Assembly (NCBI GenBank): GCA_009780135.1
Contig: WRAP01000006.1
Span: 1 to 64,000, forward strand
From: Bacillota bacterium
GTDB lineage: Bacteria > Bacillota > Clostridia > Christensenellales > Pumilibacteraceae
DNA length: 64,000 bases
Direction of reading: 5' to 3'
The notes beneath the pieces are model-generated. The model saw nothing but the letters and a program-made list of their open reading frames with translations. It was not told where the DNA came from and did no database searches. Positions 11,988 through 56,637 of the stretch are shown here, one piece after another (the stretch's first letter is position 1; every line of letters starts with the position of its first letter). Both the position numbers and the translations under genes were made by a program.

Positions 11988-13142
11988 ATGACAAATCATT
12001 GTGATTGTGGCAGATGTAATATCTGCTGTATGCGAGGACCGAGAGGGCCGATGGGTCCAAGGGGCTGTACAGGCGAAAGAGGACCTATTGGACCGATGGG
12101 ACCAAAGGGTTGTACTGGAGAAAGAGGGCCGATGGGTCCTAGAGGTTGTACGGGTGAGCGAGGCCCTATTGGTTTAACAGGAGCAATGGGTGCAACAGGT
12201 CCAATGGGTCCTATAGGTTGCACAGGTGAAAGGGGGCCTATTGGACCGATGGGACCAAAAGGTTGTACTGGAGAAAGAGGTCCGATAGGTCCTATGGGTT
12301 GTACAGGTGAGAGAGGCCCTATTGGCTTAACAGGAGCAACGGGTGCAACCGGACATATAGGTCCTATCGGTCCAACAGGTCCGATGGGGGCAAAGGGTGA
12401 GGATGGTTTGCCGGGTCCTGCCGGCCCACAAGGTGCTACAGGTGCGACGGGGCCTAGAGGTTGTACAGGCGAAACAGGTGCTATAGGTGCTATGGGACCT
12501 GCTGGTCCGCAAGGTGAAAGAGGCGAAGCGGGAGAGCATGGTCCGATTGGTCCTTCTGGTGAAAGAGGTGAAACAGGTCCAATTGGTCCAAGAGGTTTAA
12601 TGGGTTTACCTGGTCCGATTGGTCCTAGAGGTTTTACGGGTGCAACCGGTGCTAGCGGTATAACTCCGCACATTGGCGAAAACGGCAACTGGTGGATAGG
12701 TACAGAAGACACTCATCATTGGGCGGGTAGTGTGTGGAAAGACTTTGTAGAGGAGCTTAAAATTGACGAGACTTCGGGCATTAGAGCTCAATTTAGAGAT
12801 GATTTAAGCTACTTTTATAGCGACGGCAAGTTTGTAAAATTCAATCTGTTTATTTATGTAGAGGGCGATCAGGATTATGACGGAGTTAGTGATGTAGTTA
12901 GAGTTATTATCCCTGATAAACTTCTGCCGAAGTATAAAACGCATCTTTATCCGGGTACTGTAATTTTCCACGGTGTAAATCATCCTGTAACTATAGATAA
13001 TTATAGAGCCGCCGCCTTATCGGTTTATCCGTCTGAGTTAGGTGCCACTATCGCATTCAAATGTACTAGAATGGAGAATGCCGAAGGTTTTAACTTTATA
13101 GCAAGCGGTGAATATTCTTTAGAAGACATACCGAAACAATAA
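11988..13142 (+). CDS. Collagen-like surface protein with Gly-X-Y repeats
   Basis: 384 residues from ATG 11988, chosen because GAGGAG lies 12 nt upstream; the longer TTG start at 11946 has none. A Cys-rich N-terminus (MTNHCDCGRCNICCMRGPRG) leads into about 200 residues of uninterrupted Gly-X-Y with many GPIGPMGPKGCTGERGP blocks. A segment with GENGNWWIG follows, then a unique C-terminal domain of about 130 residues. In Bacillus and Clostridium, proteins like this form exosporium or spore-surface filaments. The repeat makes long but meaningless minus-strand frames. A paralogue lies at 19567. Confidence 0.88.
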   Translation: MTNHCDCGRCNICCMRGPRGPMGPRGCTGERGPIGPMGPKGCTGERGPMGPRGCTGERGPIGLTGAMGATGPMGPIGCTGERGPIGPMGPKGCTGERGPIGPMGCTGERGPIGLTGATGATGHIGPIGPTGPMGAKGEDGLPGPAGPQGATGATGPRGCTGETGAIGAMGPAGPQGERGEAGEHGPIGPSGERGETGPIGPRGLMGLPGPIGPRGFTGATGASGITPHIGENGNWWIGTEDTHHWAGSVWKDFVEELKIDETSGIRAQFRDDLSYFYSDGKFVKFNLFIYVEGDQDYDGVSDVVRVIIPDKLLPKYKTHLYPGTVIFHGVNHPVTIDNYRAAALSVYPSELGATIAFKCTRMENAEGFNFIASGEYSLEDIPKQ

Positions 13143-34027: not shown

Positions 34028-34202
34028 CAATGAGAAATGAGAAATTAGGAATGAGAAATTTCAGACTTATTTATAGATTTCATAATTAAATTCTTGAATT
34101 TAAGCTAAAATAAATATAATCATTGAAAAAATATTCCTTACAAGTTAAATATTTTTATAAATTATCAATAATTTCTCATTCCTAATTTCTCATTTCTCAT
34201 TG
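34028..34202. mobile_element. 175-bp inverted-repeat element (no gene), after ftsH
   Basis: 33-bp terminal inverted repeats, 34028-34060 and 34170-34202, are exact reverse complements and made of TGAGAAAT/GAAATTAGGAA units. Just inside the left arm is TCAGACTTATTTATAG. No open frame. The right end is 3 nt from the ftsH stop codon. The arms closely resemble those of the four-helix-bundle element at 54187-54688, so this may be a non-autonomous relative. Confidence 0.75.
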
Positions 34203-36347: not shown

Positions 36348-36433
36348 AAAAATATCTCCTAAAATAGTCCGCTAGGGACACAATCTATAGTATAGCATAG
36401 GGGGATTTGTGGGGCAAGCGGAATTTTTTGTCA

Positions 36434-36558
36434 ATGATAAATTAGGAATTAGGAATGAGAAATTTCGGACTTATTTCAAGGTATGATAATATTTTTTTCA
36501 TTATTACTTAACAAGTTTAAACTCAACAATTTTTCATTCCTAATTCCTAATTTATTAT
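36434..36558. mobile_element. 125-bp inverted-repeat element (no gene), after the SDR gene
   Basis: 31-bp arms, 36434-36464 and 36528-36558, pair with two mismatches (ATAAATTAGGAATTAGGAAT core). GGACTTATTTC lies just inside the left arm. The right end overlaps the last base of the minus-strand SDR gene's stop codon. It is the same family as 34028-34202. Confidence 0.7.
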
Positions 36559-37376
36559 TAGCGGTACATCGTCCCATTTATCCAATCCGCAACTCCTATG
36601 GGCAGAATTTTATTTACTGCCCTAAAAGCTCGATTACTAATACCTACTGTAGTGGTAATAGGCGGATTTTTACTTTCAATCACATCTACAATCCTAGTGG
36701 CCACATCCATAGGGTCAAGCCCGCCTTGCTCTATATTGGCTAATCTCGTACAAGCCTTATCCTGAGCATCAAAATACTCCCCGATAGCTTCTTCGCCGTA
36801 AATTTTTCGCTTAAAGGTAAAAGCAGTCGAAACACCACCGGGACAAACTGCCGTTAGCTTTATATTGAATGGTTTTAATTCTAGTGCTAAACTACGAACG
36901 GTTATATCAAGTGCCGACTTACTGGCAGAATACGGAGCGTCAAAAGGCACAGGAAAACTTCCCGCTAAACTAGACACAACCACAATCCTGCCTGATTTTT
37001 GGCGTCGCATAATAGGCAGAGCCTCCCAAAGCGTCTTAATAAATCCAAAATAATTTACCTCAAAAATTCGCCTAAAGTCACTTTCCGTTATATGCTCTAA
37101 CGGACACGCTAAACTAGCTCCCGCCGAATAAACTAAAACATCAATTCGGCTATGGGCTTTATAAATCTGGGCAATTGCTTCCGCTACGCTACCCTCAACT
37201 GCTACATCGCAGCAAATATTGCTAAATCCGCCGTCGCAAAACTTACATAAATCCGCTCCAGTTCTAGATAAGTTATAAACGGTGTAGCCCTTATTTATCA
37301 ATCTTTGCAGGGTAAAAAACCCAATCCCGCTACTACCGCCAACTACCACCGCTACCGGCTTAATTTTTTCTACCAT
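36558..37376 (-). CDS. Short-chain dehydrogenase/reductase
   Basis: 272 residues from ATG 37376, with AAGGAGA about 10 nt upstream; the longer start adds a hydrophobic leader without support. Classical SDR motifs: GGSSGIGF for the cofactor, YSAG (the NNAG position), SSLAGSFPVPFDAPYSASKSA with catalytic Ser, Tyr and Lys, and CPGGVSTAF. The substrate is unknown. Its 3' end borders an inverted-repeat element. Confidence 0.88.
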   Translation of the reverse strand: MVEKIKPVAVVVGGSSGIGFFTLQRLINKGYTVYNLSRTGADLCKFCDGGFSNICCDVAVEGSVAEAIAQIYKAHSRIDVLVYSAGASLACPLEHITESDFRRIFEVNYFGFIKTLWEALPIMRRQKSGRIVVVSSLAGSFPVPFDAPYSASKSALDITVRSLALELKPFNIKLTAVCPGGVSTAFTFKRKIYGEEAIGEYFDAQDKACTRLANIEQGGLDPMDVATRIVDVIESKNPPITTTVGISNRAFRAVNKILPIGVADWINGTMYR

Positions 37377-51518: not shown

Positions 51519-51629
51519 AAACTACAAATTATAATGTATAAATCACAAATGATGATTTATTTAAGATTAAATAATAAAAACAACTATATAAGTCCTAATT
51601 TGTAATTTATACACTGTAATTTGTAATTT
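51519..51629. mobile_element. 111-bp inverted-repeat element between two coat genes
   Basis: 42-bp arms, 51519-51560 and 51588-51629, agree at 35 of 42 positions (TACAAATTA, TGTATAAAT blocks). The inner boundary reads GGACTTAT at one end and TGATTTAT at the other, like the other elements, although the outer repeat sequence differs. It begins 6 nt after the stop of the preceding gene and has no frame of its own. Confidence 0.6.
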
Positions 51630-52409: not shown

Positions 52410-54173
52410 ATGCTAAAGATACTACGGTACTTAACTAAAAAAGATGTTTTGATTATTGCTATTATTGCTTTGCTTGTTGTGGGACAGGTTTGGTTAGAAA
52501 TTGAAATACCTAGATTATTGGGCGAGATGGCCCAAGCTATTACTAATCCGTTGGAGCCATTGGTTTTATCGGAAATTTTTGTTACGGGTGGGATTATGGT
52601 GGCATTAGCACTAGGTAGTTTAGTGGCGGCGATTATTTCGGTATTTCTATCTAGTAAAATGGCGGCGGGCTTTGCCAGAAGGTTAAGAGAAAAAGTGTTT
52701 AGTAAGGTAGAGAGTTTTTCTACAGCAGAGGTAAATAATTTTTCGCCTAACAGCTTAATAACCCGTACAACTCAAGATGTAGCTAGGGTGCAAATGATAG
52801 TGGGTGTTGGAGTTAGGCTTTTTGTTAGAGCCCCTGTTATGGCAATTTGGGCACTTAATAGAATCGCTAGTCAAAACTGGTATTATTTGGCTCTTATGGG
52901 CGGAGCATTTACCGTGATGGCTATTCTTGTGGTGTTTATTATTATGATAGCTCTTCCTCGCTTTAGAAAGGTACAAAAATTACTTGATAATATTAACCGT
53001 CTTACAAGAGAAAATTTATCTGGTATAAGAGTTGTTAGGGCATATAACGCAGAGAATTTTCAAACCGAAAAATTCGAGGAAGCCAACAGCGAAATGACAA
53101 AAGAGCAGTTGTTTGTTGAAAGAAGCTTTCAAATAATTCATCCTGGTATGGCACTTATTATAAGCGGGCTTACCGTGGGGATTACTCTTATAACTGCGTT
53201 TTTAATTAGCGGTACTTACGAGGCTACAGTTCAAGACCTTTTGTTTGCTGATATGCTAATGTTTAATCAGTATGCTATGATGGCGATTATGGCATTTGTA
53301 TTACTTATTTTTGTGTTTGCAAATTTGCCAAGGGCTGTGGTTAGTGCTAAAAGGATTTTGGAAGTATTGGATACACAGAGTAGTATTGTAGATGGTGATG
53401 GAGTTATGCCAATAGAAAGTGACATTGGTAAAGTTGAGTTTAGAGGAGTTAGCTTTAAGTATCCCGATGCCGAGCAAAATATTTTAGAAAATATTTCCTT
53501 TACGGCAAACCCCGGAGAAACGGTAGCTTTTATTGGTTCTACAGGTAGCGGAAAATCGACATTGATAAATCTTGCACCAAGGTTTTACGATGCTACAATA
53601 GGCGAGATTTTTATAAGTGGACAAAATATAAAGGATTATAAATTGGCGGATTTAAATCGCCAAATAGGATTTGTTAGTCAAAAAGGGATTATTTTTTCCG
53701 GGACTATAAAAGATAATATTGCTCTAGGTGAGATGGAGGATAGTTTAAGTGAAGCAGAAGTTTTAGAAGCAGTAGAAGTGGCTCAGGCTAGTGATTTCAT
53801 TTTGGCTAAAGAGAGCGGATTAGATAGTCATACGGCACAAGGCGGAACAAATTTATCGGGCGGTCAAAAGCAAAGAGTGTCGATAGCTAGGGCGCTTGCT
53901 AAAAAGCCGAATATTTTAATTTTTGACGACAGTTTTTCGGCACTGGATTATAAAACCGATAGGGCACTTAGGGATAGCCTAAAAACCGAGTTTAAGGGGG
54001 TAACACAGCTTATCGTAGCACAACGCATTGGTACAATAAGAGATGCCGATAAAATTATGGTGCTAGATAAAGGTAAAGCTGTCGGTTACGGCTCGCACAG
54101 CGAACTTATGGCGACTTGCGAAATATATAAAGAGATAGCTTTTTCGCAATTGAGTGAGGAAGAATTGATGTAA
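52410..54173 (+). CDS. ABC exporter half-transporter A (degenerate Walker B)
   Basis: 587 residues: a six-helix membrane domain, then a nucleotide-binding domain. Walker A GSTGSGKST, signature LSGGQKQR, and Walker B ILIFDDSFSALD, in which the catalytic Glu is Asp. This is a hallmark of the inactive partner in heterodimeric exporters such as TM287 or BmrC. Its partner is the next ABC gene, now separated by a 502-bp mobile element. The substrate is unknown, commonly drugs or lipids. Confidence 0.9.
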   Translation: MLKILRYLTKKDVLIIAIIALLVVGQVWLEIEIPRLLGEMAQAITNPLEPLVLSEIFVTGGIMVALALGSLVAAIISVFLSSKMAAGFARRLREKVFSKVESFSTAEVNNFSPNSLITRTTQDVARVQMIVGVGVRLFVRAPVMAIWALNRIASQNWYYLALMGGAFTVMAILVVFIIMIALPRFRKVQKLLDNINRLTRENLSGIRVVRAYNAENFQTEKFEEANSEMTKEQLFVERSFQIIHPGMALIISGLTVGITLITAFLISGTYEATVQDLLFADMLMFNQYAMMAIMAFVLLIFVFANLPRAVVSAKRILEVLDTQSSIVDGDGVMPIESDIGKVEFRGVSFKYPDAEQNILENISFTANPGETVAFIGSTGSGKSTLINLAPRFYDATIGEIFISGQNIKDYKLADLNRQIGFVSQKGIIFSGTIKDNIALGEMEDSLSEAEVLEAVEVAQASDFILAKESGLDSHTAQGGTNLSGGQKQRVSIARALAKKPNILIFDDSFSALDYKTDRALRDSLKTEFKGVTQLIVAQRIGTIRDADKIMVLDKGKAVGYGSHSELMATCEIYKEIAFSQLSEEELM

Positions 54174-54186
54174 TCAATTCGAGTTT

Positions 54187-54688
54187 AATGAGAAATTAGA
54201 AATGAGGCGAATGAGAAATTGTTGACTTATTAAATAAAAGAAAAACATTTGGAGTAAATTATGAAAGAAAATATCATGTTAGAAAAAGCTCTAAAATTTG
54301 GAGTACGAGTAATAAAATTGGCAAGGTTTTTAGACGAACAAAAACATAAAGTTGTTGCTAATCAAATTTTGCGTAGTGGTATGAGCGTAGGTGCAAATAT
54401 TTCAGAAAGCGAATACGCATCTAGTAGTGCAGATTTTATAAATAAATTGCAAATAGCACGAAAAGAAGCTAACGAAACAAAATATTGGTTACGCCTATTA
54501 AAAGAAGCTGAAATTATAGAAAATAAATTATTCGAAAGTTTATTTTCAGACTTAGATGAGATTACAAAATTATTAGGTGCAAGTGTTCTTACAGCAAAGA
54601 AATCTAAATAATTTATTATCTTTGCGATTAGAAAAAGTTGCTTAATAAATCTTTAATTTCTCATTCACCTCATTTCTAATTTCTCATT
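54187..54688 (+). mobile_element. 502-bp mobile element carrying a four-helix-bundle gene
   Basis: 34-bp inverted repeats, 54187-54220 and 54655-54688, match at 33 of 34 positions (AATGAGAAATTAGAAATGAG start). GTTGACTTATT follows inside the left arm. Between the arms is one gene for a four-helix-bundle protein. The element splits two ABC genes that elsewhere are adjacent. The arms resemble the gene-less elements at 34028-34202 and 36434-36558. A clear target duplication was not seen. Confidence 0.75.
54261..54611 (+). CDS. Four-helix-bundle protein of the 23S-rRNA intervening-sequence family
   Basis: 116 residues with the family signature: LILRSGMSVGANISESEY-like (ILRSGMSVGANISESEY), then DFINKLQIARKEANETKYWLRLLKEAEII. 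The family (S23/bAvd-like) is found in intervening sequences of 23S rRNA genes and, as Avd, in diversity-generating retroelements. It is thought to bind nucleic acid. GGAG sits 6 nt before the ATG. Here it lies between inverted repeats in an intergenic site, as in 23S intervening sequences, where the ends form a stem. No reverse transcriptase is nearby. Confidence 0.9.
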   Translation: MKENIMLEKALKFGVRVIKLARFLDEQKHKVVANQILRSGMSVGANISESEYASSSADFINKLQIARKEANETKYWLRLLKEAEIIENKLFESLFSDLDEITKLLGASVLTAKKSK

Positions 54689-54696
54689 GAGATAAA

Positions 54697-56637
54697 ATGC
54701 AAAATCAAGGACACAACATAAAGGTACAGCGCCCAGAGGAGCGACCTAAAAAAAGTAAGGATTTCAAAAAAGCGATAAAACAATTATTTTCCTTTCTAAA
54801 ACCGTTTAGAGTGCTAATGATTCTAGCACTTAGTTTTGCATTGCTTGGAGCAGTTTTACAAATATTTTTTCCTCTTTTTATCGGAAATATTACCGAACAC
54901 ATCGCAGGTGTTTTAAGGCAACCTATCGATACTTATCCATACTATATCCTAGGTACTCCTATTGATATATCTATGGTTCTTAGGTTAGCAATTATTGCCG
55001 GTACTTTAGCTCTCGGCGGAATAATTTTTTCGTTTTTGCAAGGCTTCATTATGACTACCGTAACGCAAAGAGCGGTCGAGAAAATGCGTAGCCGAATTAT
55101 TAAAAAACTTAATATCTTGCCACTTAAATATTTTGATACAACTAGCTTTGGCGACATTTTAGCAAGGCTCACAAGCGATGTGGATTTGGTTGGTCAGTGG
55201 CTTGGGCATCTTGTTATAACTCTTGTAACGAGTATATTTTTAATGACGGGAATTCTTACGATGATGTTTATAATAAATTGGATTATGGCACTTTCTGCTA
55301 TCGGTGCTACGCTGATAGGTGCCTTTGTGAGCGTTTTTATAATGAAGAACAGCCAAAAATATCATAAAAGACGACAAAAGAAAATGGGGCAGTTAAGTGG
55401 TCAAATAGAAGAAACATATGCAGGGCATAGTATTGTAAAGGCATATTCGGCAGGAGATAAAATAAAGACGGAGTTTAGAAAAACTAATCAAGAATTAGAA
55501 AAAGCACACGGCTTGGCTGATTTTTTCTCTATAGCAATTCATCCGATTATGCATTTTATAGGCAACTTAGGTTTTGTTGTGGTGTGTGTTGTGGGTGTTG
55601 CACTTATTACTAGTGGCAATTTATCCGGTGCAGAGGGCTTTGGGGTTATCGCTAGCTTTTTGATTTTTGTTAGATTGTTTTCTCAACCTCTAATGCAATT
55701 AGCAGAAGCTGGTCAAGGTATACAAATTACAGCCGCTGCAAGTGAGAGGATTTTTGAGTTTTTAGATGAGAGCGAATTAGATGGCGAAGAACATAAAACG
55801 GCAAGGATAGAGAATGTTAAAGGAGAAGTAGAATTTAGAAATGTGGTTTTTGGTTATGATAAAGATAAAACAATTATTAAGAATTTTTCGGCCAATATAA
55901 CTGCTGGTTCTACAGTTGCAATAGTTGGGCCTACAGGCGGTGGCAAAACAACGCTAGTAAATCTTCTTATGCGTTTTTACGAAATTGATAGCGGAGAAAT
56001 TTTAATAGACGGCATAAATATCAAAGATATGAAGAGGGAAGAATTAGCATCGCTTTTTGGAATGGTTCTTCAAGACACTTGGATTTTTGAAGGCACGATA
56101 GGTGAGAATATTGCTTATAACAATTTTTCAACGCACAACACACGATGCACAACGCACAATGAAAGGCGATTTAATGATAATATTGTAGGGGCGACTGTCG
56201 CCCGCCAATGCAAGTACCCCCTTGAATCTGTAATTGGAGCGTCTAAAATGGCAAACCTAGACCATTTTATCCGCACACTTCCTAATGGTTACGATACTGT
56301 ACTAGATGATAAAACTAACTTAAGTGGCGGGCAACGGCAACTTGTAACTATAGCTCGTGCGTTTATGGCAAATAAACCTATGCTTATTTTAGATGAAGCT
56401 ACAAGTAGCGTAGACACCCGTACAGAAATCCTAATTCAAGAAGCAACCGATCGTTTAACAAAAGGTCGCACAACTTTTGTAATAGCACATCGTCTATCTA
56501 CAATAAAAAATGCCGACCTCATTTTAGTGCTTAAGGACGGTGATATAATCGAAAAAGGTAATCATACGGAATTATTAGCACAAAACGGTTTTTATGCTTC
56601 GCTATACAATGCACAGTTTGCAAAGTATGAAGGATAA
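54697..56637 (+). CDS. ABC exporter half-transporter B
   Basis: 646 residues with a six-helix domain and an intact nucleotide-binding domain: Walker A GPTGGGKTT, signature LSGGQRQL, Walker B MLILDEATSSVD. It pairs with the gene at 52410, supplying the active catalytic site. About 35 extra residues (roughly 478-513, STHNTRCTTHNERR...VGATVARQ) sit between NIAYNN and VIGASKMAN, encoded by two different repeats. The mobile element ends 8 nt before the ATG and leaves no good ribosome binding site. Confidence 0.9.
   Translation: MQNQGHNIKVQRPEERPKKSKDFKKAIKQLFSFLKPFRVLMILALSFALLGAVLQIFFPLFIGNITEHIAGVLRQPIDTYPYYILGTPIDISMVLRLAIIAGTLALGGIIFSFLQGFIMTTVTQRAVEKMRSRIIKKLNILPLKYFDTTSFGDILARLTSDVDLVGQWLGHLVITLVTSIFLMTGILTMMFIINWIMALSAIGATLIGAFVSVFIMKNSQKYHKRRQKKMGQLSGQIEETYAGHSIVKAYSAGDKIKTEFRKTNQELEKAHGLADFFSIAIHPIMHFIGNLGFVVVCVVGVALITSGNLSGAEGFGVIASFLIFVRLFSQPLMQLAEAGQGIQITAAASERIFEFLDESELDGEEHKTARIENVKGEVEFRNVVFGYDKDKTIIKNFSANITAGSTVAIVGPTGGGKTTLVNLLMRFYEIDSGEILIDGINIKDMKREELASLFGMVLQDTWIFEGTIGENIAYNNFSTHNTRCTTHNERRFNDNIVGATVARQCKYPLESVIGASKMANLDHFIRTLPNGYDTVLDDKTNLSGGQRQLVTIARAFMANKPMLILDEATSSVDTRTEILIQEATDRLTKGRTTFVIAHRLSTIKNADLILVLKDGDIIEKGNHTELLAQNGFYASLYNAQFAKYEG
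56128..56163. repeat. In-frame repeat related to 61216-61250
   Basis: GCACAACACACGATGCACAA and CGCACAATG on the plus strand. Its reverse complement aligns with the recD2 segment as ATTGTGC.TTGT.CA......TTGTG.GTTG. Confidence 0.55.
56184..56206. repeat. In-frame GTAGGGGCGA repeat
   Basis: TGTAGGGGCGACTGTCGCCC then GCC, read as VGATVARQ in the ABC protein; compare 42464-42490. Confidence 0.75.

Follow-up and report, generated by a model that had tools for sequence, protein, structure and literature searches.

Gene content and ends of the element

The analysed window is a stretch of 64,000 nucleotides (nt) of contig WRAP01000006.1 (positions 1 to 64,000, forward strand; assembly GCA_009780135.1) from a Bacillota bacterium of the family Pumilibacteraceae, order Christensenellales. 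At 54187-54688 it contains an element formed by a single gene of the four-helix-bundle (FHB) family S23/IVP, located between two inverted arms which are built of tandem 7-nt repeats (heptads). The element lies between two host genes encoding ABC half-transporters, and the region shows the following features:

54187..54688, + strand: complete element, with the FHB gene enclosed by inverted heptad arms (from the repeats, the empty site in 29 relatives and the RNA fold)
54187..54233, + strand: left arm, tandem 7-nt units AATGAGA/AATTAGA, then inner GACTTATTAA
54642..54688, - strand: right arm, inverted; its outer 34 nt match 33/34
54261..54611, + strand: FHB gene, PF05635 / TIGR02436, 116 amino acids (aa) (from profile scores and an AlphaFold2 (AF2) model)
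52410..54173, + strand: ABC half-transporter A (ABC-A), upstream host gene, degenerate Walker B
54697..56637, + strand: ABC half-transporter B (ABC-B), downstream host gene, intact Walker B

The inverted repeats 54187-54220 and 54655-54688 show 33/34 identity and, at 89%, extend to 47 nt (54187-54233 / 54642-54688). Their construction from tandem heptads had been missed by an earlier, sequence-only reading of this DNA. The inner ends, AATT(A)AGGAYTTATTTA, are constant among the copies of this family in the same genome. Folded as RNA, the whole element reaches -125.4 kcal/mol (z -6.4), with the arms paired along their full length. Only FHB is encoded between the inverted repeats, where a transposase of a known class is absent, and neither a promoter-like site on the strand of the FHB gene nor a terminator-like site was found around this gene. 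The Walker B region of ABC-A is ILIFDDSFSALD (FDDS), in which the catalytic Glu is absent, and that of ABC-B is LILDEATSSVD, which is intact. The sequence-only reading had described an S23-type FHB gene alone between 34-bp inverted repeats, an ABC half-transporter pair with one degenerate and one intact Walker B flanking the unit, short gene-less relatives in the window, and no transposase or reverse transcriptase (RT) nearby. These descriptions hold: the first by the PF05635/TIGR02436 assignment and the 33/34 arms, the second from the sequence of the two genes, the third at 34028-34202 and 36433-36559, while FHB is the sole gene between the repeats and this genome has no match to RVT_1.

Empty insertion sites in related genomes

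Insertion-free sites were searched with protein queries in 40 relatives and the genome of the element (own genome), taking the best ABC-B match with its upstream DNA, and the resulting sample contains 29 other genomes (loci L138-L166). In 29/29 of them ABC-A directly precedes ABC-B with nothing between, the arrangement that the sequence-only reading had named as the one to look for. The 24 automatically delimited junctions show mostly -11 to +2 nt between the ABC open reading frames (ORFs); the values of L150 and L166 are odd from start-codon choice, and the FHB gene and the repeat are absent there. In the other five junctions, which include that of G002, a genome of the same genus, reading by eye shows that the ABC genes overlap or abut. 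The 523-nt gap holding the element is present in the own genome only, and therefore the insertion is derived. Elsewhere FHB genes occur at other sites, with inverted repeats there; the findings that the sequence-only reading had named as contrary to its view, FHB genes in relatives without inverted repeats or always between these ABC genes with no empty sites, do not hold.

A site with several states is found in Nostoc. Megablast with a Nostoc plasmid locus shows the same site lacking the gene in relatives: it is a short plain intergenic region (empty) in L170-L172, a gene-less heptad hairpin in L169, and an FHB element with AGGGAAC arms in L132 and L133, between which the number of units varies. 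Thus empty, gene-less and full forms of one Nostoc site exist. The junctions also contain small extra changes, so no clean target rule is revealed. The three Planktothrix plasmids all contain the insert, hence they show no empty site, and for the FHB-bearing contigs of gut phages no nearly identical phage free of the insert was found that would give the junction.

Gene-less copies in the own genome

The own genome (1.58 Mb, 84% complete) contains one PF05635 gene. The arm motif occurs eight times in the window vs 0.02 expected from shuffles, and in the whole genome it has 113 matches (57 forward and 56 reverse), the reversed-pattern control giving 0. In the window, the gene-less copies and a related hairpin are these:

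34028..34202, + strand: gene-less copy, arms complementary 33/33
36433..36559, + strand: gene-less copy, arms complementary 94%
51519..51629, - strand: hairpin without a gene, related but built of other heptads (AATTACA type), inner GGACTTAT in common

The matches resolve into 34 entries with a paired arm, of which a few are duplicated or represent inverted repeats of another kind, and 31 arm clusters that lack a good partner. Typically, a copy has the sequence (C)AATGAGAAATTAGAAATGAGGCGAATGAGAAATT(A)AGGACTTATTTA ... TAAATAAATCCTTAATTTCTCATTYGCCTCATTTCTAATTTCTCATT(G), and inward of the arms both ends run on as AATTAAGGAYTTATTTA; the homology of the copies therefore extends beyond the arms. Three dispersed copies (L074, L088 and L094) show the same insert of ~60 nt in the same place of the arm at different contig positions, the pattern that movement of an already interrupted gene-less copy would leave. 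Among 26 clear copies, the left arm resembles its own right arm more than those of other copies (median rank 2/26), and therefore the pairing is maintained within copies.

Some other repeats were observed in the own genome. L094 (contig C11:39952-40212) also contains a second heptad hairpin, with units ATTGAGA/ATGGAGA and inner GGACTTAT, nested in the family copy, and at L064:8582-8615 (minus strand, contig C10) a family arm is in frame in an RNase R-like gene, encoding the peptide ELEIRNEKLEIKD. ABC-B shows at 56125-56220 an in-frame insert of ~29 codons in the nucleotide-binding domain which is not in relatives, and which is composed of a heptad array CAACGCA (~4.4 units) followed by a GTAGGGGCGAC palindrome. 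A palindromic repeat GTAGGGGCGAC...GTCGCC is located at Y1-transposase genes or remnants (L275 and L276; 32 matches in the own-genome DNA searched) and is probably a separate system resembling repetitive extragenic palindromes and their associated tyrosine transposases (REP/RAYT). At 12034-12380 the window contains tandem repeats of the collagen-like GXX type, with periods of 45 nt and 153 nt.

Heptad arms at FHB loci of the order and of other phyla

In the order, PF05635 is distributed patchily (30/101 genomes). When the upstream DNA of each gene is aligned to the reverse complement of its downstream DNA, 23 of ~51 FHB loci show strong inverted arms, formed again by tandem heptads but of different sequence. 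G002 contains nine FHB genes with nine different arm units: GGGGTCA, CAGTGAT, GGGGTTC, TAGTGCAA (8 nt), AACGAAA, AATGATA, GATAACA, AGCGAAT and AAGTAGG. In 400 kb of this genome there are 114 arrays of period 7, 15 of period 8, and 0 to 1 of periods 5, 6, 9 and 10; for 51 of the period-7 arrays an inverted partner lies no more than 700 nt away, and the FHB-arm units are among the period-7 units. With looser array settings the period-9 count rises to 14 and the period-10 count to 12. The strict de novo array finder does not pick up the diverged own-genome arms (0 in the window), and its comparison between genomes, driven by G002 and G090, is only indicative. Loci L052, L053, L056 and L059 and the phage contigs L167 and L168 show FHB without inverted tandem arms and contain 7-9-nt motifs (TGAAATA, GAGAAATCC, TGAATTG and others) that recur between variable mini-hairpins; in L039, L042 and L119 comparable motifs, likewise spaced by hairpins, lie inside inverted arms. 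These motifs are possibly a second arm architecture, which may speak for a binding unit of 7 nt.

With the XCC0516 sequence as query, a scan covering one genome per species gave 80 named loci from many phyla, 49 of which have strong inverted arms vs 1.4% of mismatched pairs. On plasmids, 16/17 FHB loci are armed (Spirochaetota, Bacteroidota, Cyanobacteriota, Bacillota and Chloroflexota). Over 87 pooled armed loci, the present one included, the best period is 7 at 72 loci and 8 at 10, the median arm is 32 nt with mostly four or five units, and 61/72 units are distinct. At 78 armed loci vs 7 the inward strand is purine-rich, and at 81 vs 4 it has more G than C. Unit similarity climbs with protein identity from 3.5/7 (identity <0.3) to 7/7 (>0.8, a top bin of four pairs), so the arms have been inherited with the protein or adapted along with it. 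The neighbours are both co-directional with FHB in 85 cases and both opposed in 11, which fits a reliance on host read-through transcription. An Rfam screen of 100 FHB loci gave no match to large subunit (LSU) rRNA.

Plasmid loci L124, L126, L127 and L134 show FHB elements within defence operons (hsdS/hsdR, cas2/cas1, drmD/pglX (DISARM) and cas6/cas4). In Anabaena plasmids the insertions are located between cas1 and cas2 and between cas6 and cas4, which fits a mobile element landing in operons. Eighteen IVP genes have been noted in cas loci, with no explanation given (PMC3936711).

Xanthomonas FHB genes and the GGGAATC repeat

X. arboricola, X. dyei and X. vasicola contain close relatives of XCC0516 with GGGAATC arms, and these FHB genes are flanked by accB-like and accC-like genes (names read from sequence). 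The GGGAATC repeat of Xanthomonas forms 70-75 convergent inverted pairs per genome, for which no mobile-element association was found and which were read as G-quadruplex repeats (Rehm et al., 2015; PMC4692102). In 79 genomes of Xanthomonadaceae, considering as abundant at least 20 matches to a three-unit GGGAATC array, abundant arrays are present in 17/35 genomes with PF05635 vs 2/44 without it (Fisher p 7e-6, kinship ignored), and all nine genomes with at least 100 array matches have a PF05635 gene. Copy number, which according to the sequence-only reading might follow the presence of the FHB gene, does so in this independent family. For seven further FHB loci of named species, with other arm units, the genomes give an array count of zero.

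Family and fold of the FHB protein

The product of 54261-54611 scores 93.7 bits with PF05635 (cut-off 33.8) and 99.8 bits with TIGR02436 (cut-off 24). With the equivalog model of Avd, a protein of diversity-generating retroelements (DGR), it scores 23.7 bits, below the cut-off of 80, and solved Avd is not retrieved by the FHB profile on sequence, even at E 10. The AF2 model shows four helices (pLDDT 96.7), and its structure matches are 2RLD (TM 0.91, the best in PDB), 2GSC (TM 0.85), the DGR RT-Avd-RNA complex 8UB7 (TM 0.83) and Avd 4DWL (TM 0.81). Both 2RLD and 2GSC contain five chains, and 2GSC is a homopentamer as published (cited in PMC4990558). Q35, R38, S42, N46, E49 and E72 are conserved at 95-100% among 151 proteins, and the family motif RxxxSxxxNxxE (PMC3936711) is present; six such conserved polar residues are unusual for a purely structural bundle.

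Favoured explanation and its alternatives

The locus is probably a minimal mobile element with FHB (S23/IVP) as its sole gene and inverted arrays of about five 7-nt repeats as its ends. Comparison between genomes shows, at the level of sequence, an insertion between formerly abutting genes, dispersal and gene-less copies, as well as a conserved period with a variable repeat sequence whose unit co-varies with the protein; from the empty sites and the copies we infer transposition. The FHB gene would be transcribed by read-through from the host operon, and the FHB pentamer would recognise its own heptad array, probably with about one heptad per subunit, because the arms hold four to five units. 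The heptads would be recognised as single strand or hairpin, the hairpin would be the mobile form, and FHB would drive or license its copying to new sites, acting in trans on gene-less copies. FHB might itself cut and join, by means of the invariant Q-R-S-N-E-E residues, or might recruit host enzymes, direct catalysis being a tentative proposal that we rather doubt. Of similarly low likelihood is the wider idea that FHB would be a new transposition protein, a ~115-aa pentamer reading heptad arrays and itself processing the hairpin, in one of the smallest autonomous mobile elements known, and that a single ancient class, spread through bacteria and possibly archaea, would have left as its copies or remnants the intervening sequences (IVS) of rRNA and the heptamer repeats seen in Xanthomonas, Nostoc and elsewhere.

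Several observations weigh against the interpretation as a mobile element. No movement was seen, FHB shows no recognised catalytic motif, the insertion junctions are short of base resolution, and the flank strings shared by 26 copies are of 4.4 nt vs 4.2 nt in mismatched pairs (boundaries ambiguous), with no target-site duplication detected. In the own genome 31/65 arm clusters could not be paired acceptably under the threshold applied, which means that many copies are decayed or that the rule is looser. Strong inverted arms are lacking at about half of the order's FHB loci, some of those with hairpin-spaced motifs among them, and arrays are absent in 14-40-kb samples of G017, G026, G027, G044 and G066. 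Abundant GGGAATC arrays are lacking in 18/35 Xanthomonadaceae with FHB, and the association in that family may owe something to kinship.

The hairpins could instead be mobile through an unrelated enzyme, Y1/RAYT or another host transposase, with FHB as a passenger which binds or protects the hairpin RNA. Y1 transposase homologues are indeed present, as three weak matches in the own genome and in 15/30 relatives with FHB, and hairpin ends without target duplication recall HUH systems; but the three own-genome Y1 loci have no flanking heptad arms, two of them being at the different palindrome GTAGGGGCGAC, the association of FHB with Y1 is not significant (p 0.18, 101 genomes), and G090 contains four FHB genes, three of them heptad-armed, without any Y1 match. 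A passenger role also explains poorly that the unit tracks the protein or that copy number follows FHB, and we consider this alternative unlikely. Retro-mobility, in which FHB would act like DGR Avd, binding the hairpin RNA and an RT encoded elsewhere so that copies arise via cDNA, seems less probable still. The fold likeness to Avd 4DWL and to the 8UB7 complex, the orientation of FHB along the host transcript in 85/96 cases and the very stable RNA hairpin would agree with it, but an RVT_1 (PF00078) match is absent from the own genome, as far as its 84% completeness goes, and from G001, RT is lacking in 21/30 relatives with FHB (association not significant, p 0.20), and on sequence the FHB profile does not find Avd. 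These results on RT and Y1 make a mover encoded elsewhere less likely. The least probable explanation, to which we give very little weight, is that the heptads are ordinary microsatellites arising by replication slippage, with FHB as a host gene, ribosomal or regulatory, located nearby by chance. Slippage has been proposed for heptanucleotide repeats (reviewed in PMC4679880), and the unit number differs between the strains L132 and L133; yet the arms are inverted and complementary and flank the gene on either side far more often than in the control, empty sites exist, the dispersed copies have inner ends and nested inserts in common, and FHB is patchy among the 101 genomes. Slippage is already disfavoured by these points.

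Comparison with known systems

We read the heptad-armed FHB elements as minimal mobile elements of a new class, because to our knowledge no mobile-element type combines a four-helix bundle as sole gene with lineage-specific heptad-array ends; an earlier description is possible, the literature searched being incomplete. IVS elements have been known for more than 30 years without a mechanism of mobility, and structures of S23/IVP proteins have been solved since 2006 with, as far as we know, no function assigned to them. Heptanucleotide repeats have been reported at least three times as unexplained, and the association with FHB offers an explanation. It ties the S23/IVP protein, the IVS and the heptamer repeats together in a testable way, by a gene, a co-varying recognition unit, and empty and filled sites. 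No link between the FHB family and heptad repeats was found in the literature searched, which mostly leaves subscription journals outside and includes passages of the Coxiella IVS paper (PMC4990558).

Like an insertion sequence with its miniature inverted-repeat transposable elements (MITEs), the element shows a single gene flanked by inverted repeats, short copies that lack the gene but share the ends, and empty sites; unlike them, it has no DDE, HUH, tyrosine or serine recombinase and no target duplication detected, and its arms are lineage-variable tandem heptads instead of fixed terminal repeats. It differs from REP/RAYT systems (IS200/IS605-like) in that the own-genome Y1 genes are not flanked by heptad repeats. 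With DGR Avd it shares the fold (TM about 0.8), but there is no adjacent RT, the Avd score is sub-threshold and solved Avd gives no sequence match.

The GGGAATC / GGGGATT repeats of Xanthomonas and Nostoc (PMC4692102) are likewise intergenic 7-nt arrays, and the arms of the Xanthomonas FHB genes are exactly GGGAATC; the link with FHB drawn here was not made in that account. The TAACTGA repeats of Beggiatoaceae, Cyanobacteria and Bacteroidetes (PMC4679880) are also abundant intergenic heptamers, patchy and apparently horizontal, with a mechanism left unexplained there, but they are mostly direct and the arms described here are inverted. The closest likeness in architecture is to the 23S rRNA IVS, in which an FHB-family ORF lies between complementary ends forming a long stem. 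In Coxiella burnetii, the IVS is of ~430-500 nt and proposed as selfish or mobile, also like here, and tandem heptamers GACAGAT are located immediately before the ORF, RNase III cutting at the first repeat (PMC4990558). Unlike the IVS, the present element is intergenic, between ABC genes, 0/100 FHB loci are in rRNA, and gene-less copies are dispersed. Because of the shared protein family, the complementary ends and the published Coxiella heptamers, the 23S rRNA IVS would likely be the rRNA-inserted form of this class.
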